This document shows positions 7,752-51,200 of a DNA stretch of 64,000 nt, in pieces (the stretch's first letter is position 1; each line of letters opens with the position of its first letter). A program made the position numbers and the translations under genes. The DNA comes from Phycisphaerae bacterium (GTDB taxonomy: Bacteria; Planctomycetota; Phycisphaerae; Sedimentisphaerales; Anaerobacaceae), in NCBI GenBank assembly GCA_028714855.1, contig JAQTLP010000007.1:124001-188000 (forward strand), written 5' to 3'. The notes under the pieces are model-generated. The model saw only the letters and a list, made by a program, of their open reading frames with translations. It searched no databases and had not been told where the DNA came from.

Positions 7752-8762
7752 ATGAAAGACAAAATTTACATTGTTGTAACATCTATTGCCGGTTCAGAAA
7801 ACGTGATTCTCCAGCAATTGGCTCAAGGCTGTAGTGAAAGAGAATATCAATTCATCGTTATAGGCGACCAGGCCAGTCCAGCCGAGTTTAATATTGACGG
7901 CTGTGACTTTTACGGTCTGGAAAGGCAAAAACAAACAAAGTTAAAGTTTGCTCAATTGTGTCCGACCAAACATTACGCGCGCAAAAACATCGGCTATCTT
8001 CTCGCTATTCGTGATGGTGCATCGATTATCATTGAAACTGATGATGATAACATACCTTTCCAGCAGTTTTGGCAACAACGGCAGCGGATTCAAAGCGTTC
8101 CGGTTCTCAAGGAAGGTGGTTGGGTGAACGTTTATCGTTATTTTACCGGTCAGAATATTTGGCCGCGAGGCTTTCCTCTGGAACAAATTCAGGAGCAGGT
8201 TCCTTCGTACCAGTCGCTTAACGCAGCGGAAATTGATTGTCCTGTCCAGCAGGGATTGGCTGATGAGAATCCTGATGTCGATGCGGTATATCGTCTCGTT
8301 TTGCCGCTTCCGCAAACCTTTACAAAAGAACGTCGAATTGCACTGGCTAATGGTTCATGGTGTCCTTTTAATAGCCAAAACACTGCGTGGTGGCCGGATG
8401 CGTTTGAACTGCTTTATTTGCCTTCGTATTGCTCTTTTCGAATGACGGATATCTGGCGTAGTTTCATCGCTCAGAGAATTGCCTGGCTTAATGACTGGGC
8501 GATTCTATTCCACGAGCCAACCATGAGGCAGGAACGCAATGTGCATAACTTGCTGCGTGATTTTAACGATGAAGTCCCCGGCTACCTGCACAATAGCGAA
8601 ATCTGTGAAGCCTTGGAATCTTTGTCTTTGGAATCAGGCGTTGAAAAAATCGGCGACAATCTTAAAATTTGTTACGAAAAATTAGTTGGTATGTCCCTAA
8701 TTGGTCGGGAAGAATTGCAGTTGCTTGATGCCTGGCTTGAGGATATTAAGCAGCTCCGCTAA
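7752..8762 (+). CDS. STELLO-type (DUF288) glycosyltransferase-like protein
   Basis: 336 aa. The stretch KHYARKNIGYLLAI (about 75-88) followed by IIETDDDNIPF (~96-106) matches what I recall of the STELLO/DUF288 family, whose plant members act in the Golgi on cellulose synthase assembly and carry a GT-like domain with a D-D-D motif. No membrane segment or signal peptide is visible, so the protein should be cytoplasmic. It lies between a DPM1-like GT2 and a GT-C-like protein in an apparent operon. The function of bacterial members is not established; glycan synthesis is inferred from neighbours. Confidence 0.72.
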   Translation: MKDKIYIVVTSIAGSENVILQQLAQGCSEREYQFIVIGDQASPAEFNIDGCDFYGLERQKQTKLKFAQLCPTKHYARKNIGYLLAIRDGASIIIETDDDNIPFQQFWQQRQRIQSVPVLKEGGWVNVYRYFTGQNIWPRGFPLEQIQEQVPSYQSLNAAEIDCPVQQGLADENPDVDAVYRLVLPLPQTFTKERRIALANGSWCPFNSQNTAWWPDAFELLYLPSYCSFRMTDIWRSFIAQRIAWLNDWAILFHEPTMRQERNVHNLLRDFNDEVPGYLHNSEICEALESLSLESGVEKIGDNLKICYEKLVGMSLIGREELQLLDAWLEDIKQLR

Positions 8763-13605: not shown

Positions 13606-14166
13606 TTGTTGAAGGTAGGCGAAAATCCGCCGATTGCTTGGCCTGAGGAAAAATCACTTCATGATTTTATCGGTTTGTGGTGGGTTGCTCATACTAAAAG
13701 CAGAAGTGAAAAAGCCTTGGCCAAGGACTTGATTCAAAAAGATATCAGCTATTTTCTTCCTATGAGTTGGAAAGTTCGCCGTCAAAGAGGCAGAACAATA
13801 CGCTCGCTTTTGCCTCTATTTAGCGGATATCTGTTTTTTTGCGGTAAGGAGAGCCAGCGTATTGAAGTGTTGCGGACCAATCGTGTTGCAAATCTGCTCG
13901 CGGTTACTAACCAGCAAAAATTGCTTGACGAATTATCACAAATTGAACGAGCTCTTCGAACAGGTGTAGCTCTGACAACGCATAGATACATCAAAGCGGG
14001 CCAACACTGCCGAGTCATAGGTGGGGCATTAGCTGGTTTGCACGGTATCGTCGTCAAAACCAGAGACACTATGCGTTTGCTTTTGCAGGTGGATATGCTC
14101 GGCCAAGCAACAAGCGTCGAGATAGATACTGATATGATAGAGGTTATTGATGAGCAGACGCCGTGA
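13606..14166 (+). CDS. NusG-like specialised antiterminator (RfaH/UpxY/LoaP type)
   Basis: 186 aa. The N-terminal NGN domain is recognisable from WWVAHTKSRSEKALAKDL (~25-42) and PLFSGYLFFC (~77-86). The C-terminal KOW domain has IKAGQHCRVIGGALAGLHG (~128-147). Such paralogues of NusG ride RNA polymerase and help transcribe long polysaccharide operons. The start is TTG, chosen because CAGGAG (13593-13598) is seven bases upstream and no ATG is near. It stands just ahead of the glucuronokinase-galU-epimerase genes and is probably their dedicated elongation factor. Confidence 0.87.
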   Translation: MLKVGENPPIAWPEEKSLHDFIGLWWVAHTKSRSEKALAKDLIQKDISYFLPMSWKVRRQRGRTIRSLLPLFSGYLFFCGKESQRIEVLRTNRVANLLAVTNQQKLLDELSQIERALRTGVALTTHRYIKAGQHCRVIGGALAGLHGIVVKTRDTMRLLLQVDMLGQATSVEIDTDMIEVIDEQTP

Positions 14167-14230
14167 TTTTTTCAATACTTTGCTCTTGTAGCGGCAAAAT
14201 TTGTATTGCTGGATGGTAGGAACTGGTAAA

Positions 14231-14287
14231 ATGAAGATTTGTATGGTCAGACGGAATATTGGCGAATATCGCTGTATCGGCCGTTAG
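14231..14287 (+). CDS. Possible 18-codon leader peptide or gene remnant
   Basis: An ATG with AGGAA nine bases upstream opens an 18-codon frame, MKICMVRRNIGEYRCIGR, between the antiterminator and the kinase. The first residues resemble the start of GT4 glycosyltransferases, so it may be the stub of a deleted gene. It could equally be chance. Confidence 0.2.
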   Translation: MKICMVRRNIGEYRCIGR

Positions 14288-14306: not shown

Positions 14307-15326
14307 ATGATTATTTGTTCCAAAGCGTATCCGCGAGTCGGGCTAATCGGAAACCCATCAGATGGATACTTTGGCAAAACTATATCATTTGCATTCGGCA
14401 ATTTTTGCGCAGAGGTCGTTTTATACGAAACACCTGAGCTGGAGATTCTGCCCAGCGAAAAGGACCATTCACGATTTAATAGCATTACTGATATAGTCAA
14501 AGATGTGAATCTGCACGGATACTATGGGGGTATCAGGTTATTGAAGGCAACGATAAAAAAGTTCCACGATTACTGCAGGGAACACCAGATAGAGCTGCAC
14601 AAAAAGAATTTCACTATCCGCTACGCTTCAAACATACCGCACAGTGTGGGGCTGGCAGGTTCCAGCGCAATCATTACAGGCTGCCTGCGGGCTCTTTCGG
14701 CTTTTTACGGCGTTAGCATCCCGAAATATATACAGGCTAATTTAATCCTTTCAGCAGAGGTCGACGAGCTTCACATTTCCGCGGGGTTGCAGGACCGTGT
14801 GATACAGGTCTACGAAGGTCTGGTTTATATGGACTTTTCGAAAGAAATTATGGATAGGCAGGGATACGGCGTTTATGAACCGCTTGACCCCGAACTGCTT
14901 CCAAAACTTTATGTGGCTTATCGTGAGGACCTAAGCGAGCCGACCGAAATCTTTCACAATAATATTCGGGAGCGTTTCCGCAGGGGCGAACAAGAGGTAG
15001 TCGACGCGATGCAGTATTGGGCCGAATTGGCTGTCAAACTCAGAAGTTGTCTTCTGAATCGACAAACGGAGAAAATAAGCGATTTGCTGAACGCAAATTT
15101 CGACCAGAGGCGCAAAATCTATCGCATAAGCGATGAGAATATTCAGATGGTCGAAACAGCACGTTCGGTAGGAGCCAGCGCAAAGTTCACAGGCTCCGGC
15201 GGAGCAATTGTGGGGACATACGAAAACGACCAGATGTTCGACCAGCTCAGGGAAAAGCTTCGTAAGTTGAAGATTAAGGTAATTAAACCGAAGATTGTCA
15301 ACGGCACAAGAAAGGCAGAAACATGA
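14307..15326 (+). CDS. GHMP kinase, glucuronokinase-like
   Basis: 339 aa. GHMP-fold motifs: RVGLIGNPSDGYFGKTISF (~10-28), IPHSVGLAGSSAIITG (~109-124, the ATP P-loop), AGLQDRVIQVYEGLVYMDFS (~164) and KFTGSGGAIVG near the C-terminus. The pattern NPSD-Y, HGYYGGIRLL and GLQDRV-Q-Y-GLV-MDFS agrees, from memory, with plant glucuronokinase, which makes glucuronate-1-phosphate from glucuronate and ATP. The stop overlaps the galU start (ATGA), and a UDP-glucuronate 4-epimerase follows, a chain that supports the assignment. A related sugar-1-kinase is the alternative. Confidence 0.78.
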   Translation: MIICSKAYPRVGLIGNPSDGYFGKTISFAFGNFCAEVVLYETPELEILPSEKDHSRFNSITDIVKDVNLHGYYGGIRLLKATIKKFHDYCREHQIELHKKNFTIRYASNIPHSVGLAGSSAIITGCLRALSAFYGVSIPKYIQANLILSAEVDELHISAGLQDRVIQVYEGLVYMDFSKEIMDRQGYGVYEPLDPELLPKLYVAYREDLSEPTEIFHNNIRERFRRGEQEVVDAMQYWAELAVKLRSCLLNRQTEKISDLLNANFDQRRKIYRISDENIQMVETARSVGASAKFTGSGGAIVGTYENDQMFDQLREKLRKLKIKVIKPKIVNGTRKAET

Positions 15327-16189
15327 TTAAAAAGGCAGTTATTCCCGCAGCAGGTTTTGGGACTCGTTTTCTGCCTGCAACCAAATCTCAACCCAAAGAG
15401 ATGCTGCCGATTGTCGATACGCCGGTCATCCAATACGTGGTTGAGGAAGCGGTTAAATCCGGCATTACCGATATACTGATGATTATCGGCTCGGGCAAAC
15501 GCTCCATAGAGGAGCACTTTGACCGAAGCTTTCAATTGGAGGTCCAGTTGCTTGAGCAGGGCAAAAAGGCCGAGTTGGAGAAGATCCGGCGGATTTCGGA
15601 ACTGGCTGATATCCATTTTGTCTGGCAAAAAGAATTAAAAGGCCTTGGTGATGCGGTTTACTGTGCCCGCCATCACGTCAAAGATGAGCCCTTCGTAGTT
15701 TTGCTCGGTGACACACTGATAGATTCCGGCCAACCGGCGGCCAGCCAGCTGCAGGAGGTATTTGAAAAATATCAAACGCCCGTGGTATTGCTTGAAAAAG
15801 TGGGCCGCGACAGAGTCAGCCGTTACGGGATAGTGGATGCAGAGCAGGTTAATGCACGCGTTTGTAAGGTAAAAGACATTATTGAAAAGCCGAGTCCGGA
15901 ACAGGCGCCTTCGGACCTGGCGATTGCAGGCCGTTATGTCCTAACGCCCGATATTTTTGACTATCTCAGCCGAACCGGGCCTGGTCATGGCGGCGAGATT
16001 CAGCTTACTGATGCCCTGCGGATGATGCTGAAAGACCGCCCGATGCATGGTCTCTACCTCGATGGAAAACGCTGCGATATCGGCAGCAAGGAGGGGTTCA
16101 TTAAAACAAATATTGAGTTTGCTCTCAAACGGGATGATGTAGCTGAAAACCTGAAGGAGTATATTAAAAAGTTGGCAGCGAACATTTAG
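15323..16189 (+). CDS. galU: UTP-glucose-1-phosphate uridylyltransferase
   Basis: 288 aa, typical GalU length. Nucleotidyltransferase signature AAGFGTRFLPATKSQPKEMLP (~10-30), GLGDAVYCARHHV (~108), LLGDTLID (~130) and GGEIQLTDALRMML (~222). It makes UDP-glucose, and in this setting may also accept glucuronate-1-phosphate from the kinase with which it shares an ATGA overlap. The GalU/UDP-sugar pyrophosphorylase difference cannot be judged by eye. It belongs to the kinase-galU-membrane protein-epimerase run. Confidence 0.92.
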   Translation: MIKKAVIPAAGFGTRFLPATKSQPKEMLPIVDTPVIQYVVEEAVKSGITDILMIIGSGKRSIEEHFDRSFQLEVQLLEQGKKAELEKIRRISELADIHFVWQKELKGLGDAVYCARHHVKDEPFVVLLGDTLIDSGQPAASQLQEVFEKYQTPVVLLEKVGRDRVSRYGIVDAEQVNARVCKVKDIIEKPSPEQAPSDLAIAGRYVLTPDIFDYLSRTGPGHGGEIQLTDALRMMLKDRPMHGLYLDGKRCDIGSKEGFIKTNIEFALKRDDVAENLKEYIKKLAANI

Positions 16190-16199
16190 GGGCAGCACT

Positions 16200-16565
16200 A
16201 TGGATACCATTGTTACAATTATAGGTGTAGTTTTTGTTTTTATGACAATCGTGTATTTTTTAAAGCCAGACGTTACGAAAAGCTTAATGGAATTCTTCAA
16301 ACAAGGCAGGCGAATATATTTTGTAGCGTTGATACGGCTCGCGTTGGCAATTGTCTTTTTAGTCGCTGCGAGACAATGCCGTTACTTCTGGGTAATATTT
16401 GCCTTTGGAGTCCTTTTCATAATATCAGGACTGTTGATATTCATACTCGGGCTTGAAAAGGTCAAATCTTATATTAGCTGGTGGCAAAAACAGCCGGCTA
16501 TGTTTCTTCGGGTTATCGCTCTAATCGGCCTGGCCATCGGGGCGCTCATTATTTATTCAGCGTAA
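16200..16565 (+). CDS. Small integral membrane protein, unknown function
   Basis: 121 aa with four hydrophobic segments (about 3-20, 41-58, 62-84 and 98-119) joined by short basic loops. It lies ten bases after galU and nine before the epimerase, so it is co-transcribed with them. It somewhat resembles small DUF-type four-helix proteins, but I do not recognise the family. A role as a scaffold or in glycan export is only contextual. Confidence 0.7.
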   Translation: MDTIVTIIGVVFVFMTIVYFLKPDVTKSLMEFFKQGRRIYFVALIRLALAIVFLVAARQCRYFWVIFAFGVLFIISGLLIFILGLEKVKSYISWWQKQPAMFLRVIALIGLAIGALIIYSA

Positions 16566-16574
16566 GTAGACTAT

Positions 16575-17519
16575 ATGAAAACACTTGTAACAGGAGCAGC
16601 CGGCTTCATCGGCTCACACCTTAGTGAGCGACTTCTTGACAATGGCTTGATGGTAGTCGGTATTGACAGTTTCGACGACTTTTACGACCCTCGAATCAAA
16701 CGGCAAAATATCAAAGGTTGCCTTAAGAATAAAAATTTCCAGCTTGTTGAGGCCGACATTCGCGATAGCTCTGCTATGGATAAAGTCGTCGGGGACGGCA
16801 TTGAAATAATCGTCCACCTCGCCGCCAGGGCTGGCGTAAGACCTTCCATTGAGAAGCCGTTGCTTTACGCCGATGTCAATATAAATGGAACTATGGTCTT
16901 GCTCGAAGCTGCAAAAAAATATAAGGTCAACAAGTTCGTCTTCGCCTCAAGCTCAAGCGTTTATGGCAACAATAAAAAAGTCCCCTTCTCCGAAGACGAC
17001 AACGTTGATTTCCCAATCTCGCCCTACGCCGCCACAAAAAAGGCCTGTGAGCTTATCTGCCATACGTATCATCACCTTTACGGAATTTCCATAACGTCCC
17101 TGCGGTTTTTCACCGTCTATGGCCCTCGGCAAAGACCCGACTTGGCCATCCATAAATTTGCTAAGCTCATCGAACAAGGTAAACCCATACCGGTTTATGG
17201 CGATGGCTCTATGATGCGGGATTTCACATACATTGATGATATAATCGACGGCGTCGCCGCGGCAATGGATAAATGTGCTGGCTTCCATCTTTATAACCTC
17301 GGCGAATCACGCCCCATATCGGTCAGCAATTTAATCGCAGAAATCGAAAAAGCCCTCGGCAAAAAAGCTGTCAAAAAATATCTGCCCCCCCAGCCCGGCG
17401 ACGTCGAACGCACGTTTGCTGATGTCACCAAAGCTGTTAACGAGCTTGGCTATAAACCGGATACAATGATTCAGACCGGCCTCGCAAAATTCGTCGAATG
17501 GCTAAGACAAAATGAATAA
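16575..17519 (+). CDS. UDP-glucuronate 4-epimerase (NAD-dependent SDR)
   Basis: 314 aa extended SDR. Rossmann motif GAAGFIGSHLSERLL (~7-21), the HLAARAGVRPSIEKP signature (~78-92) found in GAE-type UDP-glucuronate epimerases, a catalytic S..(Y-x-x-x-K) with SPYAATKKA (~147-155) and RFFTVYGPRQRPDLA (~175-189). The enzyme interconverts UDP-glucuronate and UDP-galacturonate. With the glucuronokinase-like and GalU proteins it would turn free glucuronate into UDP-GalA. It precedes a GT-C-like gene by eight bases. UDP-glucose or UDP-N-acetyl specificity is possible but less likely given the RAGVRPS motif. Confidence 0.88.
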   Translation: MKTLVTGAAGFIGSHLSERLLDNGLMVVGIDSFDDFYDPRIKRQNIKGCLKNKNFQLVEADIRDSSAMDKVVGDGIEIIVHLAARAGVRPSIEKPLLYADVNINGTMVLLEAAKKYKVNKFVFASSSSVYGNNKKVPFSEDDNVDFPISPYAATKKACELICHTYHHLYGISITSLRFFTVYGPRQRPDLAIHKFAKLIEQGKPIPVYGDGSMMRDFTYIDDIIDGVAAAMDKCAGFHLYNLGESRPISVSNLIAEIEKALGKKAVKKYLPPQPGDVERTFADVTKAVNELGYKPDTMIQTGLAKFVEWLRQNE

Positions 17520-17527
17520 CCCCCAAT

Positions 17528-19339
17528 ATGGAAATACAAGCAGACCAAAAAGATTCTGGCTTTCGCAGTTTCATCAGCAGGATTCTAACTCACCGCTTCT
17601 TTCCGCTTTACGCCGCCCTCTTGGCTGTCATACTCACACTCCTTTCTTTGAACGCAGGATTGCTTGTCGACGATTACCACCATAAGCTCTTAATGACCGG
17701 CTCCGACAGTCCAATCAGAATTCTCAATTCACCAATCGATATGTTTAACTTCTTTGACGGCGACCCGGAGCATATCTCCGAAGCAATGGACTATGGTTTC
17801 CTGCCGTGGTGGACTTACGAGAGAATCAAAGGAGCATTCTGGAGACCTCTGGCTTCAATCACACACTGGCTCGATTACATCATTTGGCCGAATAGTCCCC
17901 CGCTTATGCATCTGCATAGTATCTTTTGGTATGGTGCCTTTGTAATGGCGGTGGCAGTTCTCTATCGCAGATTTAAAGTTGTCCCTCTGGTTGCAGGTTT
18001 GGCGGCCCTCTTGTATGCCATTGACGACGCCCACGGCACGCCAGTCGGCTTCCTTGCAAATCGCAATGCCCTTATGGCAACTTTATTTGGCGTCCTCACA
18101 ATCATCGCCCACGACAAATGGCGGCGCAACAATTGGCTCGCCGGGATGGTTTTGAGCCCTTTACTTTTGACAGCAAGTCTATTATCAGCAGAAGCGGGAA
18201 TATCAACTTGCGCATATCTGGCTGCGTATATGTTCTTTATCGATAGAAGCTCCTGGCGTCAGCGAATTGTATCCATGGTTCCTTACGCTGCTGTAGTTAT
18301 AGTTTGGAGGCTTTTGTGGACGCATCTGGGGTATGGTATGGAAAACTTTGGCGTTTACGTTGACCCGCTTAGTGAACCTTTGCGCTTTATAACCGCTGTG
18401 AAAGACCGCGCCCCGTTTCTATTGCTGGGTCAGTTGGCCCTGCCGCCGTCAGATATAACTATGATGCTGCCTCCCTGGTACTCGATTCCATTATGGCGAG
18501 GGGCTCTAATCTTTCTTGTGTTATTAGCTTTTGTTTTTACTCCCCTCCTCCGACGGGACAGGACTGCACGTTTTTGGATGTTCGGTATGTTGCTTTCTAT
18601 ACTGCCTATCTGCGCAACTTTTCCTTCCGACCGTCTTCTGACATTTGTTGGTATCGGTGCAATGGGCCTTGTTGCACAATTGCTTTTCGTTGTCTTTGGC
18701 AAAACCCAGTACCGCCCCAAACTGATTCTCTGGCGTATCCCTGCAACAGTCCTTGCTGTAATACTTATATTCGCCCATCTAATCATTGCCCCACTCGCTC
18801 TGCCAGTTAAAGCTGCTTACCCGATGATGCCGAAAAAAATTACTGAAAAGCTTATGCTCAACTGCCCTCTGGATAACTCTATCGAAAATCAGGACCTTGT
18901 AGTAGTCAACCCGCCTCTTGCATTTCTTGCTATGTCCTCTTCCCTCGTTTGGGAAAGTGAAAACTATCCGATGCCACGCCATTTGAGAGTTCTCACATCG
19001 AGTCTGTTCCGCCCCGTAAAAATACACTGCTCAGACTCCAACACCATCGTTGTCCAGCCCGAATATGGATACTATGCCTGGGTCCTGGATGCTCTCTTCC
19101 GGGATAAAAAGCATCCCTTCTCCGTCGGCGACCGCATCAAGCTGACCGGTATGACTGTTGAGATACTGGAACTCACCGGCGACAACCGCCCCGCCAAAGC
19201 GGCTTTCACATTTTCTGTCCCCCTTGAAGACCCTTCACTGCGATGGCTACAGTATAAAGACGGTTCCTTCGTGCCATTTACCCCGCCCGCCATTGGCGAA
19301 AATATGGTTCTAAAGTCCGAGAAACTCCCGTGGAATTGA
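17528..19339 (+). CDS. Polytopic membrane protein, GT-C glycosyltransferase-like
   Basis: 603 aa with roughly ten to eleven membrane helices to about residue 420 and a soluble C-terminal domain. The first periplasmic loop starts with LVDDYHHK (~45-52), an Asp-Asp motif where GT-C enzymes hold their catalytic acid, and HGTPVGFLANRNALMATLFG (~165-184) lies in the helical core. No exact family is recognised. It begins eight bases after the epimerase stop and ends the plus-strand polysaccharide run. A lipid-linked-sugar transferase is the favoured but unproven reading. Confidence 0.65.
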   Translation: MEIQADQKDSGFRSFISRILTHRFFPLYAALLAVILTLLSLNAGLLVDDYHHKLLMTGSDSPIRILNSPIDMFNFFDGDPEHISEAMDYGFLPWWTYERIKGAFWRPLASITHWLDYIIWPNSPPLMHLHSIFWYGAFVMAVAVLYRRFKVVPLVAGLAALLYAIDDAHGTPVGFLANRNALMATLFGVLTIIAHDKWRRNNWLAGMVLSPLLLTASLLSAEAGISTCAYLAAYMFFIDRSSWRQRIVSMVPYAAVVIVWRLLWTHLGYGMENFGVYVDPLSEPLRFITAVKDRAPFLLLGQLALPPSDITMMLPPWYSIPLWRGALIFLVLLAFVFTPLLRRDRTARFWMFGMLLSILPICATFPSDRLLTFVGIGAMGLVAQLLFVVFGKTQYRPKLILWRIPATVLAVILIFAHLIIAPLALPVKAAYPMMPKKITEKLMLNCPLDNSIENQDLVVVNPPLAFLAMSSSLVWESENYPMPRHLRVLTSSLFRPVKIHCSDSNTIVVQPEYGYYAWVLDALFRDKKHPFSVGDRIKLTGMTVEILELTGDNRPAKAAFTFSVPLEDPSLRWLQYKDGSFVPFTPPAIGENMVLKSEKLPWN

Positions 19340-45004: not shown

Positions 45005-46381
45005 ATGAAAATTGATACTAAAGGCAGGTTTTCTTTCCCCGGTGGAACACACCCTCCTCAGAGCAAAAACCTCACCTGTGAAAGCAGTATACAGCCGGGC
45101 CCTGCCGTAAAACAAGTCGCGATAATGCTAAGCCAGCATACAGGAGCCGCCTGCCAGCCGACGGTAAAAAAGGGAGACCTTGTTCAGGCAGGACAGAAAA
45201 TCGGCGACAGCGACGCATTCGTATCATCTCCGGTTCATTCACCAATCAGTGGCAAAGTAAAAGAAATCTCGCTGCAGTCGCACCCGGTGCTCGGACGAAG
45301 CCCGGCGGTAGTCATCGAAGCAAACACCGAAAATAATCTTCCTAAAGAGCCGGTTTTTAGTGAATTTACAAGCAGTTTCAGTGAAGAAAAATACTCGGTC
45401 GAACAAATATGCACAGCCATACGCGAAGGCGGTCTTGTCGGTATGGGTGGTGCGGGATTTCCGACGAGAGTGAAAATAGACCCGAATCCAAAGCAGCCGA
45501 AGGAAACTTTGATTATCAACGGTTGTGAGTGCGAGCCGTATATCACCTGTGACTATCGGATTATGTTAGAGTGGACAAACCAAATCATTGCAGGAGTCAA
45601 ACTTGCGAGAAAAGCGACCGGCTGCTCGAAGGTTTTCATCGGCATCGAAGATAACAAGCCGCAGGCAATCGATAGTTTTAGCGAAGCACTGAAAACTTCC
45701 GGAGACGACGATATTAAGGTCGTCGCGGTCAAAACGAAATATCCCCAAGGCGGTGAAAGACAGCTCATAAAAGCAGTTCTCAACAGATACGTTCCAACAG
45801 GCGGAATCCCTCCTATGATTGGCGTTGTAGTGTTAAACGTTGCTACCGCAGCCGCAATCGCCGAGGCAGTCGTATGCAAACGTCCGCTGACTCACAGGGT
45901 CGTAACCGTTACCGGAGAGGCAATCGCCAAGCCGGGCAATTATTACATGCCCATAGGTCTGCCGGTTTCCGAAATTATAGATTTCTGCGGCGGTGTAACT
46001 CAAAAATCCGCAAAGGTTGTCGTCGGCGGGCCGATGATGGGTATCGCAATCGCCGACCTCTCAACACCAACTTCAAAAACCACCGGCGCTGTAACTGTCT
46101 TAACGGAAGAGCAAATAGGCAAGGCTAAATTTGAAAGACGTCAAACGCCCTGTATTCGCTGCGGCAGATGTCTGGAAGTTTGCCCTGAAAATTTGATGCC
46201 TACTAAAATCGCCCACGCGGTGAAAAACAGCCTTTGGGACATAGCAGAAAGTTATTATATCCGCGCTTGTATTGAGTGCGGCTGCTGCAGTTATGTTTGC
46301 CCGGCCAAAATTGAAATAGCAGGATATATCAAAACAGGCAAAATTACTCTTGCAAGACAGAAGAAAAAGATACCAGGCTGA
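45005..46381 (+). CDS. rnfC: Rnf complex subunit RnfC
   Basis: 458 aa. The NADH-facing subunit of the ion-translocating ferredoxin:NAD+ oxidoreductase. A barrel-sandwich N-terminus (~30-110), the FMN/NADH loop GLVGMGGAGFPTRVK (~141-155), an SLBB region, and two 4Fe-4S motifs CIRCGRCLEVCP (~382-393) and CIECGCCSYVCP (~421-432). Compared with gamma-proteobacterial RnfC it lacks the long repeat-rich C-terminal tail. It starts the CDGEAB order. Confidence 0.95.
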   Translation: MKIDTKGRFSFPGGTHPPQSKNLTCESSIQPGPAVKQVAIMLSQHTGAACQPTVKKGDLVQAGQKIGDSDAFVSSPVHSPISGKVKEISLQSHPVLGRSPAVVIEANTENNLPKEPVFSEFTSSFSEEKYSVEQICTAIREGGLVGMGGAGFPTRVKIDPNPKQPKETLIINGCECEPYITCDYRIMLEWTNQIIAGVKLARKATGCSKVFIGIEDNKPQAIDSFSEALKTSGDDDIKVVAVKTKYPQGGERQLIKAVLNRYVPTGGIPPMIGVVVLNVATAAAIAEAVVCKRPLTHRVVTVTGEAIAKPGNYYMPIGLPVSEIIDFCGGVTQKSAKVVVGGPMMGIAIADLSTPTSKTTGAVTVLTEEQIGKAKFERRQTPCIRCGRCLEVCPENLMPTKIAHAVKNSLWDIAESYYIRACIECGCCSYVCPAKIEIAGYIKTGKITLARQKKKIPG

Positions 46382-46425
46382 TAATTCTTATGACATACAG
46401 ACGGTTCTTAAAGGAAAACGAGTAA

Positions 46426-47436
46426 ATGCTGAGAGACTTAAGAGTTTCATGTGCGCCTCATATAAGTGAGCCGCTTTCTACACGCAGGGCGATGATAGAC
46501 GTCATAATAGGTTTGGCCCCTGCAATGGCCGCGGCTGGATATTATTTCCGCATTTATGCGCTCATTCTTATCTCTACCTGCTGTTTATCCGCGGTTGCAA
46601 CCGAATGGCTTTGTAATCTAATCCGCAAAAACCCTAACTCAACCGGTGATTTCAGCGCTGTGGTAACCGGTATAATCCTCGCGTTATCGGTTCCGCCGGC
46701 GCTCCCTGTCTGGGCAGCAATAATAGGAAGCGTCTTCGCGATAGCAATCGGTAAAATGGTCTTCGGAGGGCTGGGGGCCAATATATTCAATCCTGCTATG
46801 GTCGGCAGGGCATTTCTCACTGCCTCTCTCGGTATGCTGATGACAACGTGGACTGTGCCGGCCACGATTGACCGCTCGATGCCGGTCATATCTGCCGAGA
46901 ATAAAATTGATGCGAGGACACAGGCAACGCCACTGGCATGGAGCAAAGAGGCTATAAAAACCAAAAAAGGGGCTGACCATGTAAATGAGCAGCTCGAAGC
47001 GATGTTCAAAGGCGAAGTCGGCGGATGTCTCGGTGAAACAAGCGCTCTGGCGCTTTTAATCGGCGGAGCTTATTTATTGATAAGGCGAACAATTCGTCCC
47101 CACATTCCGCTGGCGGTCATAATATCTGCTTCGGCTTTTGCCGGGATTATGTATCTTATCAATCGAGATGCCTATATTTCACCGCTAAGTCATTTGTACA
47201 GCGGCGGCCTGCTAATAGGTGCGTTTTTCATCGCAACCGACCCAGTTACTGCGCCGCTTACAATAAAGGGCAGGTGGATTTTCGGAATCGGCGTGGGAAT
47301 GATAACAATGCTTATAAGAATCTTCGGCGAATATCCCGAAGGCGTGATGTATTCGGTCCTGTTGATGAATTCCGTAACGCCTCTGATTGACAGGTTCTGC
47401 AAACTGGTCCCTGCGGGAGGTAAACCGAATGCTTAA
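46426..47436 (+). CDS. rnfD: Rnf complex subunit RnfD
   Basis: 336 aa with nine to ten membrane helices. It carries covalent FMN on a Thr in other species, in a D-x-x-(S/T)-G-A-T-P-L motif. Here the motif reads DARTQATPLAW (~164-174): the Thr and flanking ATPL are kept but the Gly is Gln. The GCLGETSALALLIGG (~200) loop and the IATDPVTAPLT segment (~265) are typical. It lies between rnfC and rnfG, whose start overlaps its last codons. Confidence 0.94.
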   Translation: MLRDLRVSCAPHISEPLSTRRAMIDVIIGLAPAMAAAGYYFRIYALILISTCCLSAVATEWLCNLIRKNPNSTGDFSAVVTGIILALSVPPALPVWAAIIGSVFAIAIGKMVFGGLGANIFNPAMVGRAFLTASLGMLMTTWTVPATIDRSMPVISAENKIDARTQATPLAWSKEAIKTKKGADHVNEQLEAMFKGEVGGCLGETSALALLIGGAYLLIRRTIRPHIPLAVIISASAFAGIMYLINRDAYISPLSHLYSGGLLIGAFFIATDPVTAPLTIKGRWIFGIGVGMITMLIRIFGEYPEGVMYSVLLMNSVTPLIDRFCKLVPAGGKPNA

Positions 47437-48055
47437 GAAAATAATCGCAAATTACATAGAACAGAGCTGGCTTCTGATTGTCTGTTCCTTTGCGTTCGGG
47501 CTTTTACTCGCTCTGACCAACTCGGCATGGTCGGGAAGAATCGAGCAGAACAAAATTGACAAGCTCAACGGCCTTATGAACTCTCTTATGACCGACGCAA
47601 ACAAATTCGAGATTGTTCTCGAAGGCGCGCAGGTCGAGCTCGGCAAAGGCAAAATCGTAAAGACTAATGTTTACAAAGCTGTCACCTCCGATGGCAAAAC
47701 CACGGGGTTCTGTTTCAACGCCGAAGGTGCCGGCTTTGCCGACAAGATAGAGCTTGTCATTGCCGTTGACGCAGCTTTCGAAAAAATCGCTGGTTACAGC
47801 GTTCTTTCGAGCAATGAAACACCAGGGTTCGGCGACAGGATTAAAGGGAATTATTACCGCGGCCAGTTCAAAGGCGCTCCCGTTGGGACGCTGATTCTTA
47901 CCAAGCAGGGTTCAGCAGAAAAAATCGACAGCGATATTGTCGCCATCAGCGGGGCAACGGTGTCAAGCACAGCGGTCGTCAATATCTTCAATAATTATCT
48001 CGAGCAAATAAAAAAACAACTCGTACAAAAAGGAATTGTAAACAGTGGCAGATAA
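47429..48055 (+). CDS. rnfG: Rnf complex subunit RnfG (FMN-binding)
   Basis: 208 aa. One N-terminal membrane helix (~10-32), then the periplasmic FMN-binding domain with GYSVLSSNETPGFGDRI (~127-143) and the flavinylation motif DIVAISGATVSS (~169-180), where ApbE would link FMN to the Thr. The ATG at 47429 is chosen because GGGAGG (47415-47420) is eight bases upstream; an upstream ATG at 47387 lies inside rnfD and has no such site. It overlaps the rnfD stop by eight bases and rnfE by eleven. Confidence 0.93.
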   Translation: MLKKIIANYIEQSWLLIVCSFAFGLLLALTNSAWSGRIEQNKIDKLNGLMNSLMTDANKFEIVLEGAQVELGKGKIVKTNVYKAVTSDGKTTGFCFNAEGAGFADKIELVIAVDAAFEKIAGYSVLSSNETPGFGDRIKGNYYRGQFKGAPVGTLILTKQGSAEKIDSDIVAISGATVSSTAVVNIFNNYLEQIKKQLVQKGIVNSGR

Positions 48056-48662
48056 AACAATGACAGCCGCGGATGCGCTGAAAGGCGGGCTTTGGACCGA
48101 GGTCCCGGTTCTTCGGCTTATTCTCGGGATGTGTCCCACGCTTGCGGTTACGACGGCTGTAAAGCCGGCGCTTACTATGGGTCTGAGTGTGCTGTTTGTT
48201 CTGCTTTGCAGCAACATTATGGTCAGCCTTATGAGAAACCTTCTCAAGCCGCACCTGCGGATACTGATGTTTACGCTGACTATTGCGGCGTTTGTTACGA
48301 TAGCGGATTTGTTTCTGCGTGCCTTTACGCCGCAGATGAGCGAAGTATTGGGGCCGTATGTGCCGCTGATTATCGTCAACTGCATAATCATCGCCCGCGC
48401 CGAGGCGTGCGCGAGCAAATGCGGGATTTTTGTAAGCACGGTCGACGCCATCAGTATGGGTATTGGCTTTACCATTGTGCTGTGTATTCTCGCTTCCATC
48501 CGGGAATTGCTGTCGGTTGGAACCATCTGGGATATTCCTGTTTTGTGGAAAGGTTTCGTGCCGTGGGCTGCGATGAGAATGCCGGTCGGCGCGTTCGTTA
48601 CGCTGGGGCTCATGATGGCGTTGGTCAATACATTTACCCAAAAATCCGTACGAGGGTCTTAA
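48045..48662 (+). CDS. rnfE: Rnf complex subunit RnfE
   Basis: 205 aa with six membrane helices, a member of the RnfA/RnfE/NqrD/NqrE family. The half-helix motif IIVNCIIIARAEACA (~108-122) holds the Cys that coordinates a shared Fe-S centre in the membrane. The start is GTG with AAGGA about ten bases upstream; an ATG five codons later has no such site. It overlaps rnfG by eleven bases. Confidence 0.92.
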   Translation: MADKTMTAADALKGGLWTEVPVLRLILGMCPTLAVTTAVKPALTMGLSVLFVLLCSNIMVSLMRNLLKPHLRILMFTLTIAAFVTIADLFLRAFTPQMSEVLGPYVPLIIVNCIIIARAEACASKCGIFVSTVDAISMGIGFTIVLCILASIRELLSVGTIWDIPVLWKGFVPWAAMRMPVGAFVTLGLMMALVNTFTQKSVRGS

Positions 48663-48664
48663 CT

Positions 48665-49255
48665 ATGGATAAATTTTATTTACTTCTGACGGCTTTCATA
48701 TCAATTGTACTTATCAACAACCTTGTGTTTACGAAATTTCTCGGCATTTGTCCCTATTTAGGAGTTTCGGGCAGGCTCGATATGGCTTTCGGAATGGGAC
48801 TGGCCGTAACGTTCGTTATAACGCTCGCTGGCGTGCTGACATGGCTTATCGACCACATGGTGCTGATGCCTTATGGGCTGGAAGTTACGCGCTACGTTTG
48901 CTACATACTGGTAATAGCCGGTGCCGTGCAGCTTGTCGAGATGTACCTGCGAAAATTTTTCCCGCCTTTATACGACAGCTTCGGGATATTTCTCCCTCTG
49001 ATTACCACGAACTGTGCCATTTTGGGATTATGCCTGTTCATAAACCTCTGGGGCATTGGTAATCTGCCGGAAGTGGCAGTGCTGAGCTTCGGGGCGGGCA
49101 TCGGCTTTACGATGGCGATATGCATTATGGCGGGGATACGTGAGAACCTGAATTTGGCTGACGTGCCGCAATGCCTCCAGGGTGCGCCGATTACGCTGAT
49201 TACCGCTGGCCTGCTGACGCTGGCGTTTATGGGGTTTGCGGGAATGGTAAAATAA
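48665..49255 (+). CDS. rnfA: Rnf complex subunit RnfA
   Basis: 196 aa with six membrane helices. NNLVFTKFLGICPYLGVS (~20-37) and LITTNCAILGLCLFI (~112-126) contain the paired Cys of the RnfA/E core that hold a membrane Fe-S centre. ATG at 48665 is the start, with GAGGG about eight bases upstream. A much longer open frame extends upstream but is only the shadow of rnfE. It forms the pseudo-symmetrical pair with RnfE. Confidence 0.94.
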   Translation: MDKFYLLLTAFISIVLINNLVFTKFLGICPYLGVSGRLDMAFGMGLAVTFVITLAGVLTWLIDHMVLMPYGLEVTRYVCYILVIAGAVQLVEMYLRKFFPPLYDSFGIFLPLITTNCAILGLCLFINLWGIGNLPEVAVLSFGAGIGFTMAICIMAGIRENLNLADVPQCLQGAPITLITAGLLTLAFMGFAGMVK

Positions 49256-49270
49256 GTGGATGAATAAGTA

Positions 49271-50152
49271 ATGATATTAGCTGACATTTATCAATTGTGG
49301 AATAGTGTGTGGCCTGCCGGCTTGATAACGCTCGGATTGGGAAGCGGCTTTGCTGTAGTGCTTCTGATAGCGAGTATAAAGCTTAAGGTCGAGGTCGACC
49401 CTAAGGTCGAACAAATCCGTGATGTCCTGCCGCACTTCGACTGCGGGGCATGCGGCTTTGCGGGCTGCAGTTCTTACGCGAAAGCGGTCGCTGAAACGCC
49501 GTCGCTGATAGGCTTATGTACGCCGGGCGGTACAAAAACATCGGCTAAAATCGCCGAGATACTGAACCTCCAAATCAGCGCTTCGGGACCGGCCAAAAAA
49601 CCGATTGTCCACTGCCGGGCACATACAGACGACAAGACCTTTTACGCAAAATATCAGGGGATACCAACGTGCACATCCGCAAACGCATTGGTCAATGTGC
49701 AGGCGTGCAAATTCGGCTGTCTCGGCTTCGGCGACTGCGTGGCGGCGTGCAGGTTTGACGCTCTGCACATAATCGATGACTTGGCCGCCGTCGATTACGA
49801 AAAATGCACCGGCTGCGGCGCATGCGCAAAAGCCTGCCCTCGCAACCTGATTGAAATGGTTCCATTTGCCTGTGAGAATATGATGACCGTCGCCTGCAAA
49901 AGCAAGGAGAGCGGCAAGGTGAGCCGCTCGATGTGCAAGGTCGGCTGCATAGGCTGCGGCCTGTGTGCCAAACAGACAGACATCTTCATTATCGAGGAAA
50001 ACTTGGCACGATTGGATTACAGCAAATTCCAGCCCAGTGAGAAGACCGAAGCCGCCATGGAAAAATGCCCGACCTGCGTAATTGTATTTCGCGGCCCAAC
50101 CGCCCCGCCGCCTCGCCAGCCTGGCCAAAAACCTGCTGCTGTAACCGCTTAA
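49271..50152 (+). CDS. rnfB: Rnf complex subunit RnfB (ferredoxin-interacting)
   Basis: 293 aa. A membrane helix (~15-37), the 4Fe-4S motif HFDCGACGFAGC...LCTPGG (~55-86), then ferredoxin-type clusters: CKFGCLGFGDCVAAC (~140-154), CTGCGACAKAC (~178-188), and a third partial motif CKVGCIGCGLCAKQT (~221-235) where the usual last Cys appears replaced. It takes electrons from ferredoxin. The end is Pro-rich. It is the last gene of the rnf operon; the convergent apbE stop is one base away. Confidence 0.93.
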   Translation: MILADIYQLWNSVWPAGLITLGLGSGFAVVLLIASIKLKVEVDPKVEQIRDVLPHFDCGACGFAGCSSYAKAVAETPSLIGLCTPGGTKTSAKIAEILNLQISASGPAKKPIVHCRAHTDDKTFYAKYQGIPTCTSANALVNVQACKFGCLGFGDCVAACRFDALHIIDDLAAVDYEKCTGCGACAKACPRNLIEMVPFACENMMTVACKSKESGKVSRSMCKVGCIGCGLCAKQTDIFIIEENLARLDYSKFQPSEKTEAAMEKCPTCVIVFRGPTAPPPRQPGQKPAAVTA

Positions 50153-50153
50153 A

Positions 50154-51200
50154 TCAATCTATAAATTTCTCTGCGCCGCTGGTTTTTATGACTTTATACT
50201 CCGGCGGCGAAGTTATTAAAATCGCCTCCGCATCCGGTATTGTCTCGATTAAGGCGAGCCCTTTTTCCCTGCCCATTACGCTTACCGCCGTCGATAAGGC
50301 ATCTGCGTCAGCTGCACTCGGGCAAATAATAGTAACGCTCGCCAAGCTCTCGCTGCTGTGCCCGCTTTCAGGGTTAATTATGTGGCTGTACTTTTTCCCT
50401 CCTATCGTAACAAATCGATGATAATGGCCGCTGGTAGCAACGGCCGAGTCAGTCAGCCGGAGGATAAATAAAGGTTTGCCTGCATTCATAACATCATTCG
50501 CGACAGGGTCTTGCAGGCCGATTCGCCAGATATTTTGGCCTGCCGGCGGTGAACCAAAGCATCGGATTTCGCCGCCGATATCGACCATTCCCCCTGCCGC
50601 CCCGCCCTTTTGCATCGCCTCAACCGCCTTATCAATTGCGTATCCTTTTGCTATCCCGCCCAAATCCACTCTCATTCCCTTTGCCGCAAAGCGAACGCTC
50701 CTTTCGTTCGCGTCTCGTATAAGTTTATCGCAGCCGACCTTCGAGTGAACTCGCTGCAGCTCTGCGTCGGAAGGTAGAGAATTCGCCTCTTCCGCCGAAT
50801 GCCAGAGGTCCACCAAAGGCCCGACGGTAACATCGAACGCCCCGCTGCTGAGTTTGCTGAACCTGACGCTTTTTTCGATTACTTCGTATGTCGATTTACT
50901 GACCCTAACCGCCCGCGCAAATCCGTCCCTGTTCAGCTCGCTTATTTCCGAATCGCTTTTGTGGTAGTTCATCAGCTTCTCGACTTCTTTGATTTCCGCA
51001 AAGGCATCTTCGATACACCCCTTAGCTGTGTTTGAATCAGCCGCGACGGCAACGACCCTCGCAAATGTCCCCATCACCTCGCGCATACCGCTGTCAGCAT
51101 CGACTCGGCCGGCATTCTTGTCAGGGGCAAAGAAATACAGCGCCGCCGCCAAAAAGGCAAAAACAACAATCTCAATCGCAATCCTGCTGTTCCTGTTCAT
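50154..51200 (-). CDS. apbE: FAD:protein FMN transferase ApbE
   Basis: 348 aa. An N-terminal membrane helix (~7-25) anchors it outside the cytoplasm. MRVDLGGIAKGYAIDKAVE (~175-193), GGMVDIGGEIRCFG (~200-213) and HIINPESGHSSES (~270-282) are the family's FAD and Mg2+ sites. It transfers FMN to a Thr in target proteins. Standing end to end with rnfB and with RnfG/RnfD as obvious targets, it should mature the Rnf complex. No lipobox Cys is seen at the helix end, so it is membrane-anchored rather than a lipoprotein. Confidence 0.94.
   Translation of the reverse strand: MNRNSRIAIEIVVFAFLAAALYFFAPDKNAGRVDADSGMREVMGTFARVVAVAADSNTAKGCIEDAFAEIKEVEKLMNYHKSDSEISELNRDGFARAVRVSKSTYEVIEKSVRFSKLSSGAFDVTVGPLVDLWHSAEEANSLPSDAELQRVHSKVGCDKLIRDANERSVRFAAKGMRVDLGGIAKGYAIDKAVEAMQKGGAAGGMVDIGGEIRCFGSPPAGQNIWRIGLQDPVANDVMNAGKPLFILRLTDSAVATSGHYHRFVTIGGKKYSHIINPESGHSSESLASVTIICPSAADADALSTAVSVMGREKGLALIETIPDAEAILITSPPEYKVIKTSGAEKFID

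Follow-up and report, generated by a model that had tools for sequence, protein, structure and literature searches.

A glucuronokinase-like kinase and a GalU-type enzyme stand in the place of UDP-glucose dehydrogenase in a putative surface-glycan operon of a Phycisphaerae bacterium

How does a bacterium obtain UDP-glucuronate (UDP-GlcA) when no canonical UDP-glucose dehydrogenase (Ugd), the enzyme of which this nucleotide sugar is taught to be the product in bacteria, is found in its assembly? The question is raised by a 64,000-nucleotide stretch of contig JAQTLP010000007.1 (positions 124,001 to 188,000, forward strand; assembly GCA_028714855.1, Phycisphaerae bacterium), hereafter the window, in which positions 14307–17519 carry genes for a glucuronokinase-like kinase (GlcAK), a GalU-type nucleotidyltransferase, and a UDP-glucuronate 4-epimerase-like protein. 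Genomes are labelled G- and fetched loci L-; G000 is the window's own genome (98.3% complete, 19 contigs). Judging from gene content and comparison with relatives, it is very probable that the operon makes UDP-GlcA and UDP-galacturonate (UDP-GalA) for a cell-surface glycan, and that the kinase–GalU cassette took over the job of Ugd in this lineage. In the proposed route, the kinase would phosphorylate free D-glucuronate at C1 to glucuronate 1-phosphate (GlcA-1-P), the GalU-type enzyme would convert GlcA-1-P and UTP to UDP-GlcA, the epimerase would convert UDP-GlcA to UDP-GalA, and the products would feed the glycan. The substrates of all three enzymes, the direction of flow, the surface-glycan use, and the dedication of GalU to GlcA-1-P are what we infer from these genes. 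The operon and its features are as follows.

13606–14166, + strand: UpxY/RfaH-like transcription antiterminator, first gene of the operon (TTG start as listed; Pfam NusG, 42 bits)
14179–14284, + strand: probable relic of the 3' end of ugd, in two colinear pieces (14179–14223 and 14246–14284) in different frames
14307–15326, + strand: glucuronokinase-like GHMP sugar-1-kinase, GlcAK (339 residues; from Pfam, alignments, and an AlphaFold model)
15323–16189, + strand: GalU-type nucleotidyltransferase, putative GlcA-1-P uridylyltransferase (288 residues; from TIGR01099, phyletic coupling to GlcAK, and a tree)
16200–16565, + strand: DUF2065 small protein (121 residues; Pfam PF09838, 24.4 bits, cut-off 24.3)
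16575–17519, + strand: UDP-glucuronate 4-epimerase-like short-chain dehydrogenase/reductase (314 residues; best PDB matches 5u4q and 6zl6; key residues)
17528–19339, + strand: 603-residue protein without a Pfam match, conserved as the next gene in the sister operon

A sequence-only reading of this DNA had proposed glucuronate salvage by the kinase, GalU, and the epimerase. Its coordinates for the open reading frames (ORFs) and the four-base overlap of the kinase and galU genes were confirmed, all three genes lying on the + strand, and the motifs that it quoted (NPSDGYF, HGYYGGIRLL, GLQDRV, and RAGVRPS) are all present in the translations. It had also placed the three genes in one run; their order and strand hold, but the DUF2065 gene, which it did not mention, lies between galU and the epimerase gene. 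The antiterminator falls slightly short of the NCBIfam UpxY model (90 bits against a cut-off of 100). Genes for an ATP-grasp protein and a WecA-like transferase lie on the opposite strand upstream of the operon, and the layout looks like that of a surface-glycan operon. Promoter and terminator scans gave scores no higher than those of shuffled sequence.

The kinase and GalU are coupled across genomes. A strong kinase orthologue (at least 286 bits) was identified in 32 of the 298 genomes of the window's class, where the next matches reached 98 bits at most. Strong GalU (at least 230 bits) was present in 31 of these 32 genomes and in only 1 of the 266 others. The kinase genome without strong GalU (G092) is 79% complete, and in the genome with GalU but no full kinase (G133), a piece of GlcAK lies at the edge of a contig. 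Within the family to which the window belongs, GalU was found in 7/7 genomes with GlcAK and 0/17 without it. Among 296 Bacteroidota genomes, GlcAK occurred in 10, and GalU in the same 10 and in none of the other 286 (the survey centres, G000 for the class and G298 for Bacteroidota, are counted within these totals). The Fisher p values for co-occurrence, which ignore shared ancestry, were 8e-40 for the class and 8e-19 for Bacteroidota. Among 40 additional kinase genomes, including many Verrucomicrobiota, 38 showed GalU at 218 bits or more, one a weak match, and one none.

The two genes also tend to be neighbours. galU lies downstream of the kinase gene on the same strand at 27 of 31 class loci, with a gap of 100 bases or less at 18 of them, and at 65 of 80 named loci, with such a gap at 61; the named loci are the best 80 of at least 559 kinase relatives found in a scan of named GTDB genomes. 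The pair is adjacent in 9 of the 10 Bacteroidota genomes, with GalU downstream in 5 and upstream in 4. Co-occurrence was seen even where the two genes lie on separate contigs, as in G527 (Bacteroidota) and G168, G026, and G086 (class). Furthermore, the distance matrices of the two proteins were correlated (r = 0.81 over 101 pairs), whereas 999 permutations peaked at 0.255. A GalU serving as a housekeeping UDP-glucose supply independently of the kinase was not encountered among the 298 class and 296 Bacteroidota genomes; its near-absence without the kinase therefore indicates that GalU is no housekeeping enzyme in these two groups, where it appears to act together with the kinase.

The second line of evidence is an exchange at one locus. 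In the close relatives L047, L048, L049, and L067, ugd stands directly before kinase–galU, and the antiterminator gene precedes ugd in L048, L049, and L067. G146, the one other genome sampled from this genus, has neither the kinase nor GalU. At the same locus it carries genes for the antiterminator, Ugd, the DUF2065 protein, the epimerase, and the 603-residue protein, in which the shared proteins are 82%, 56%, 86%, and 76% identical to those of the window, respectively, and its Ugd is 77% identical to that of L047. The antiterminator gene keeps its position in relatives as well as in the sister genome, and the DUF2065 gene is retained in a sister operon that has ugd. The window is the reverse of G146: kinase–GalU stands where G146 has Ugd, and ugd is missing. 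Within the 140 bases that separate the antiterminator and kinase genes, two colinear pieces in different frames match the last ~38 residues of the relatives' Ugd, including DGRN and EY..IGR before the stop. With L047 Ugd as the query, the two-frame score was equalled in 1 of 3634 other 140-base segments; the corresponding counts were 3/3634 for the Ugd of three other relatives and 30/3634 for that of G146. Plain tblastn of the relic was weak (E ~11), so that its location, exactly where the relatives have ugd, carries much of the weight. We regard 14179–14284 as a probable relic of the 3' end of a lost ugd. Taken together, the coupling in two phyla and the exchange at the sister locus are the main support for the salvage route that the sequence-only reading had proposed.

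We also searched for Ugd elsewhere. Canonical Ugd was not found in G000, in which an assembly gap is possible at 98.3% completeness; the best match had an E-value of 3.3e-19, and family members having Ugd gave 9e-180 or lower with the same query. Two PF03721 proteins are encoded in G000: a 399-residue protein nearest to UDP-N-acetylmannosamine dehydrogenases and a 547-residue protein nearest to a nucleoside diphosphate-N-acetylgalactosaminuronate (NDP-GalNAcA) dehydrogenase. The gene for the latter (L046 9671–11314, contig C1) lies beside genes for tetratricopeptide repeat proteins, and this enzyme bears on the ability of G000 to oxidise UDP-glucose. Across the class, Ugd was scored absent at E-values above 1e-80, a strict threshold, since even the Ugd of E. 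coli reaches only 2e-41 against the query. By this measure Ugd was absent in 8/32 genomes with GlcAK versus 48/266 without it (Fisher p 0.34). The idea that the kinase replaces Ugd throughout the class was considered and rejected, as there was no negative association. Absence is firm only in G000, G110, G121, G207, and G217, whose best matches are very weak; G214, G182, and G139 are ambiguous, since a Ugd of the E. coli type would give an intermediate score. The route without Ugd described in the sequence-only reading therefore stands for G000, but most kinase-bearing genomes have Ugd as well. As the presence of one does not preclude the other, the kinase is generally an addition to Ugd, and in the window's lineage a replacement.

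The identity of the kinase was investigated by family models, alignment, and structure prediction. It exceeds the Pfam cut-offs for GHMP_kinases_N (PF00288, 44 bits) and GHMP_kinases_C (PF08544, 22 bits), and passes no NCBIfam equivalog cut-off, the best being mevalonate kinase (49 versus 163 bits). On the HddA heptose kinase model NF049969 it scored 43.4 bits against a cut-off of 600, a model on which the HddA-like proteins of the same class reach just 162–307 bits. Four blocks, NPSDGYFG-TIS, GYYGG, AGLQDRV, and GSGGA, are invariant across 19 kinase orthologues; because of this, and because galU lies downstream at most loci, the motifs are not due to chance. Identity to Arabidopsis glucuronokinase was 44.4% over 340 residues (E 5e-92), with an approximate query sequence rather than a database record. 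With the same query, HddA-like and mevalonate kinases gave ~24%, and homoserine and galactose kinases also stayed below 30%, several of these matches being short pieces. A quick tree with long branches separated the HddA-like proteins of the class from the kinase. The sequence-only reading had named as contrary to its proposal a kinase that groups with those for heptose, fucose, or other sugars; such grouping was not observed.

Galactokinases are sugar-1-kinases, and among the fold matches listed they were the closest to the AlphaFold model of the kinase (mean predicted local distance difference test score 87.3; Z 31.4, root-mean-square deviation 2.4, 302 aligned residues). Other GHMP kinases were close behind, and the fold match therefore says nothing about the substrate. 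A 652-residue kinase ORF in L037 was considered as a fusion and rejected; its extra part matches none of the window proteins and seems to be no more than the frame running on upstream.

GalU passes the NCBIfam equivalog cut-off of TIGR01099 (362.2 bits, cut-off 326.8). In the GalU tree, a branch with a support of only 61 separates 11 canonical GalUs from the kinase-associated proteins. Twelve alignment columns split the two sets, among them a column at which the kinase-associated proteins read GLGD and the canonical ones GLGH, and the position following the invariant Asp130, with T in the former and D/V/M/E in the latter. None of the 12 could be tied to the C6 carboxylate, and an active-site signature for it was rejected; Arg167 was dropped as a signature since RmlA has it too. 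A separate GalU-like group scored 108–128 bits; its members are the weak and sole matches of six further class genomes (G254, G011, G118, G163, G272, and G151) and a second copy in G006. Several of these sequences lie in ORFs of more than 500 residues, and the four placed in the tree formed a branch of their own.

Ugd-bearing relatives, including the sister genome G146, have no strong GalU. Since the kinase-less relatives lack such a GalU but mostly have Ugd, UDP-glucose must be made there in another way. A PF01704 pyrophosphorylase was present in 43 of 45 genomes searched and in 0 of 14 control genomes, the G000 copy lying at C2:70406–71521 (L224), and from these matches PF01704 enzymes apparently replace GalU for UDP-sugar supply in this set.

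The PDB structure nearest to the epimerase was 5u4q, followed by 6zl6 (E 7e-70), the UDP-glucuronate 4-epimerase of Bacillus cereus (BcUGAepi). Tyr149 of 6zl6 is presumably the catalytic residue, which fits with the Y-to-F substitution that distinguishes 6zlj from 6zl6. Counterparts of Ser127, Ser128, Tyr149, Thr178, and Arg185 are kept in the window protein, and Ser replaces Thr126. According to PMC12338863, the carboxylate of UDP-GlcA is held by threonine and serine residues, and that of UDP-GalA, the product, by Arg185. With the Ser/Thr and Arg185 contacts and Tyr149 present, the residues point to a UDP-glucuronate 4-epimerase that shares the carboxylate-contact and catalytic residues of BcUGAepi, although its nearest structure, 5u4q, was deposited as a dTDP-glucose 4,6-dehydratase.

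The best 80 kinase relatives in the GTDB scan come mostly from metagenome-assembled genomes of Planctomycetota, Verrucomicrobia, Kiritimatiellae, Lentisphaerae, Bacteroidetes, Chitinivibrionales, and others. A few are from isolates, including Mariniphaga sediminis and Verrucomicrobium sp. A plasmid of Rufibacter tibetensis carries a kinase–GalU pair, annotated as "GHMP kinase" and "galU". Kinase relatives are also encoded on two IMG/VR viral contigs, L276 (4001–5017, 46%) and L277 (3755–4738, 38%); no GalU was found in the fetched flanks of these two loci or in a GalU search of viral contigs. Among the sequences compared, the L276 kinase is the closest to the approximate plant glucuronokinase sequence (46%). 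A distant GHMP kinase with NPSD-IYGG (L286 396–1358, G177; 98 bits, 31% to the approximate plant sequence) possibly represents another uncharacterised family of sugar-1-kinases, judging from its sequence.

The closest known systems are eukaryotic. Plants pair glucuronokinase with UDP-sugar pyrophosphorylase (USP), which takes GlcA-1-P, as described in PMC6329318. Plant GlcAK (EC 2.7.1.43) and USP thus carry out the same two steps as proposed here, GlcA to GlcA-1-P to UDP-GlcA. The window differs in that the second enzyme is a bacterial GalU type, the genes lie in a bacterial operon, and MIOX, which supplies glucuronate in plants, was searched for in G000 and not found. The zebrafish protein DrGKUP is a glucuronokinase fused to a short bacterial-like nucleotidyltransferase, whose pyrophosphorylase activity was extremely low as tested; bacterial and archaeal relatives of the transferase domain occur as the pyrophosphorylase alone, according to PMC3938481. 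DrGKUP resembles the window pair in joining a glucuronokinase to a nucleotidyltransferase, but it is one fused protein, whereas the window has two overlapping genes. In PMC12203929, the UDP-glucose pyrophosphorylases under test proved specific for glucose 1-phosphate (Glc-1-P), two plant enzymes showing less than 10% activity on other sugar phosphates including GlcA-1-P. In view of this, the specificity proposed for GalU is a substantive claim.

The window GalU belongs to the same family as canonical GalU and YngB (315 bits to YngB); it differs in the 12 columns, and its type is essentially confined to kinase-bearing genomes in the two surveyed groups. Ugd and TuaD would give the same product as the kinase–GalU route, and in the operon of the sister genome Ugd takes the position of the pair, but the chemistry is unrelated. 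No paper recognisable as dealing with a bacterial glucuronokinase was found in the open-licence literature searched. As far as could be seen, the chemistry is known, and the bacterial operon and the GalU partner are new.

We then considered where glucuronate comes from and goes. UxaC was not found in G000, nor in 22 of the 32 class kinase genomes (G000 included), and isomerase-route breakdown of glucuronate is therefore probably missing in G000 and in many of these genomes; all 10 Bacteroidota kinase carriers have UxaC. MIOX was found in 4 of the 42 kinase-bearing genomes searched. These four (G104, G516, G527, and G586) may, on gene content, run a complete plant-like route from myo-inositol to UDP-GlcA. 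The neighbours of ten kinase loci included no common uronate gene.

Three other explanations were weighed. The kinase might act on another uronic acid, most likely galacturonate, with the GalU-type enzyme making UDP-GalA and the reversible epimerase supplying UDP-GlcA. The adjacent epimerase connects both products, and the substrates of GHMP kinases cannot be read from the fold; yet the kinase is ~44% identical to the approximate Arabidopsis glucuronokinase sequence, and many kinase–GalU pairs have no such epimerase nearby. In addition, the sequences of galacturonokinase and glucuronokinase in Arabidopsis differ greatly, according to PMC3938481, and we consider the galacturonate route unlikely. 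Fainter still is the chance that GalU is the usual pyrophosphorylase for UDP-glucose and lies next to a kinase with some other role. Such a GalU would pass the TIGR01099 cut-off, as this one does; it is the sole GalU above the cut-off in G000, and canonical GalUs accept Glc-1-P. However, strong GalU is absent in 265/266 class and 286/286 Bacteroidota genomes without the kinase, the Ugd-bearing sister, which needs UDP-glucose, among them; moreover, the co-occurrence holds when the genes are unlinked, and the 11 canonical GalUs branch apart, with support of just 61.

A third possibility, that a heptose, fucose, or mevalonate-type GHMP kinase was misread from motifs, is largely refuted and we give it hardly any credence. 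Its best point is the PDB sequence search, in which mevalonate and heptose kinases matched best (E 1e-10 to 1e-8). Against it, the kinase lies far under every NCBIfam equivalog cut-off, the HddA-like proteins of the class share only ~24% identity with the approximate plant sequence and stand apart in the quick tree, and no heptose genes were seen around the kinase.

Several observations weigh against salvage of glucuronate by the kinase and GalU in place of Ugd. GalU scores as an ordinary GalU on TIGR01099, no GalU lies nearby downstream at 4/31 class and 15/80 named kinase loci, and the association tests take no account of shared ancestry. The plant comparison is a lead, since its query is no database record. 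The PF01704 enzyme might itself accept GlcA-1-P, by analogy with plant USP. G000 holds the two further nucleotide-sugar dehydrogenases, of which the 547-residue enzyme has a GGYCLPKD site with those residues identical to E. coli Ugd, and Ugd is about as often present with the kinase as without it in the class counts above. Finally, no uronate-releasing enzyme or uronate gene was found among the 28 window proteins scanned with Pfam, and with MIOX not found either, no glucuronate source was located for G000.

Elsewhere in the window, 7752–8762 encodes a 336-residue protein whose C-terminal third matches the STELLO glycosyltransferase family, in a run with a glycosyltransferase family 2 gene and one for a TMEM260-like protein O-mannosyltransferase. 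Positions 45005–51200 encode Rnf/Nqr electron-transport subunits and an ApbE protein.

A broader proposal, to which we give even chances, is that GlcAK–GalU is a mobile, self-sufficient cassette able to replace Ugd. Its "GalU" would be a dedicated GlcA-1-P uridylyltransferase, a function scarcely demonstrable in the fused animal protein, the many GalU entries beside "GHMP kinase" in Planctomycetota, Verrucomicrobiota, and Bacteroidota would be misnamed, and the ugd-less lineage would depend on outside glucuronate for UDP-GlcA. A salvage route in hundreds of Planctomycetes–Verrucomicrobia–Chlamydiae (PVC) and Bacteroidota genomes would change the annotation of polysaccharide supply, and the name of a widespread "GalU" would be corrected. 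UDP-uronic acids could then be produced with bacterial enzymes, and there would be candidates for the GlcA-1-P pyrophosphorylase reaction, at which the zebrafish protein showed hardly any activity. With Ugd and the cassette standing in for one another, the shared locus is a natural experiment.

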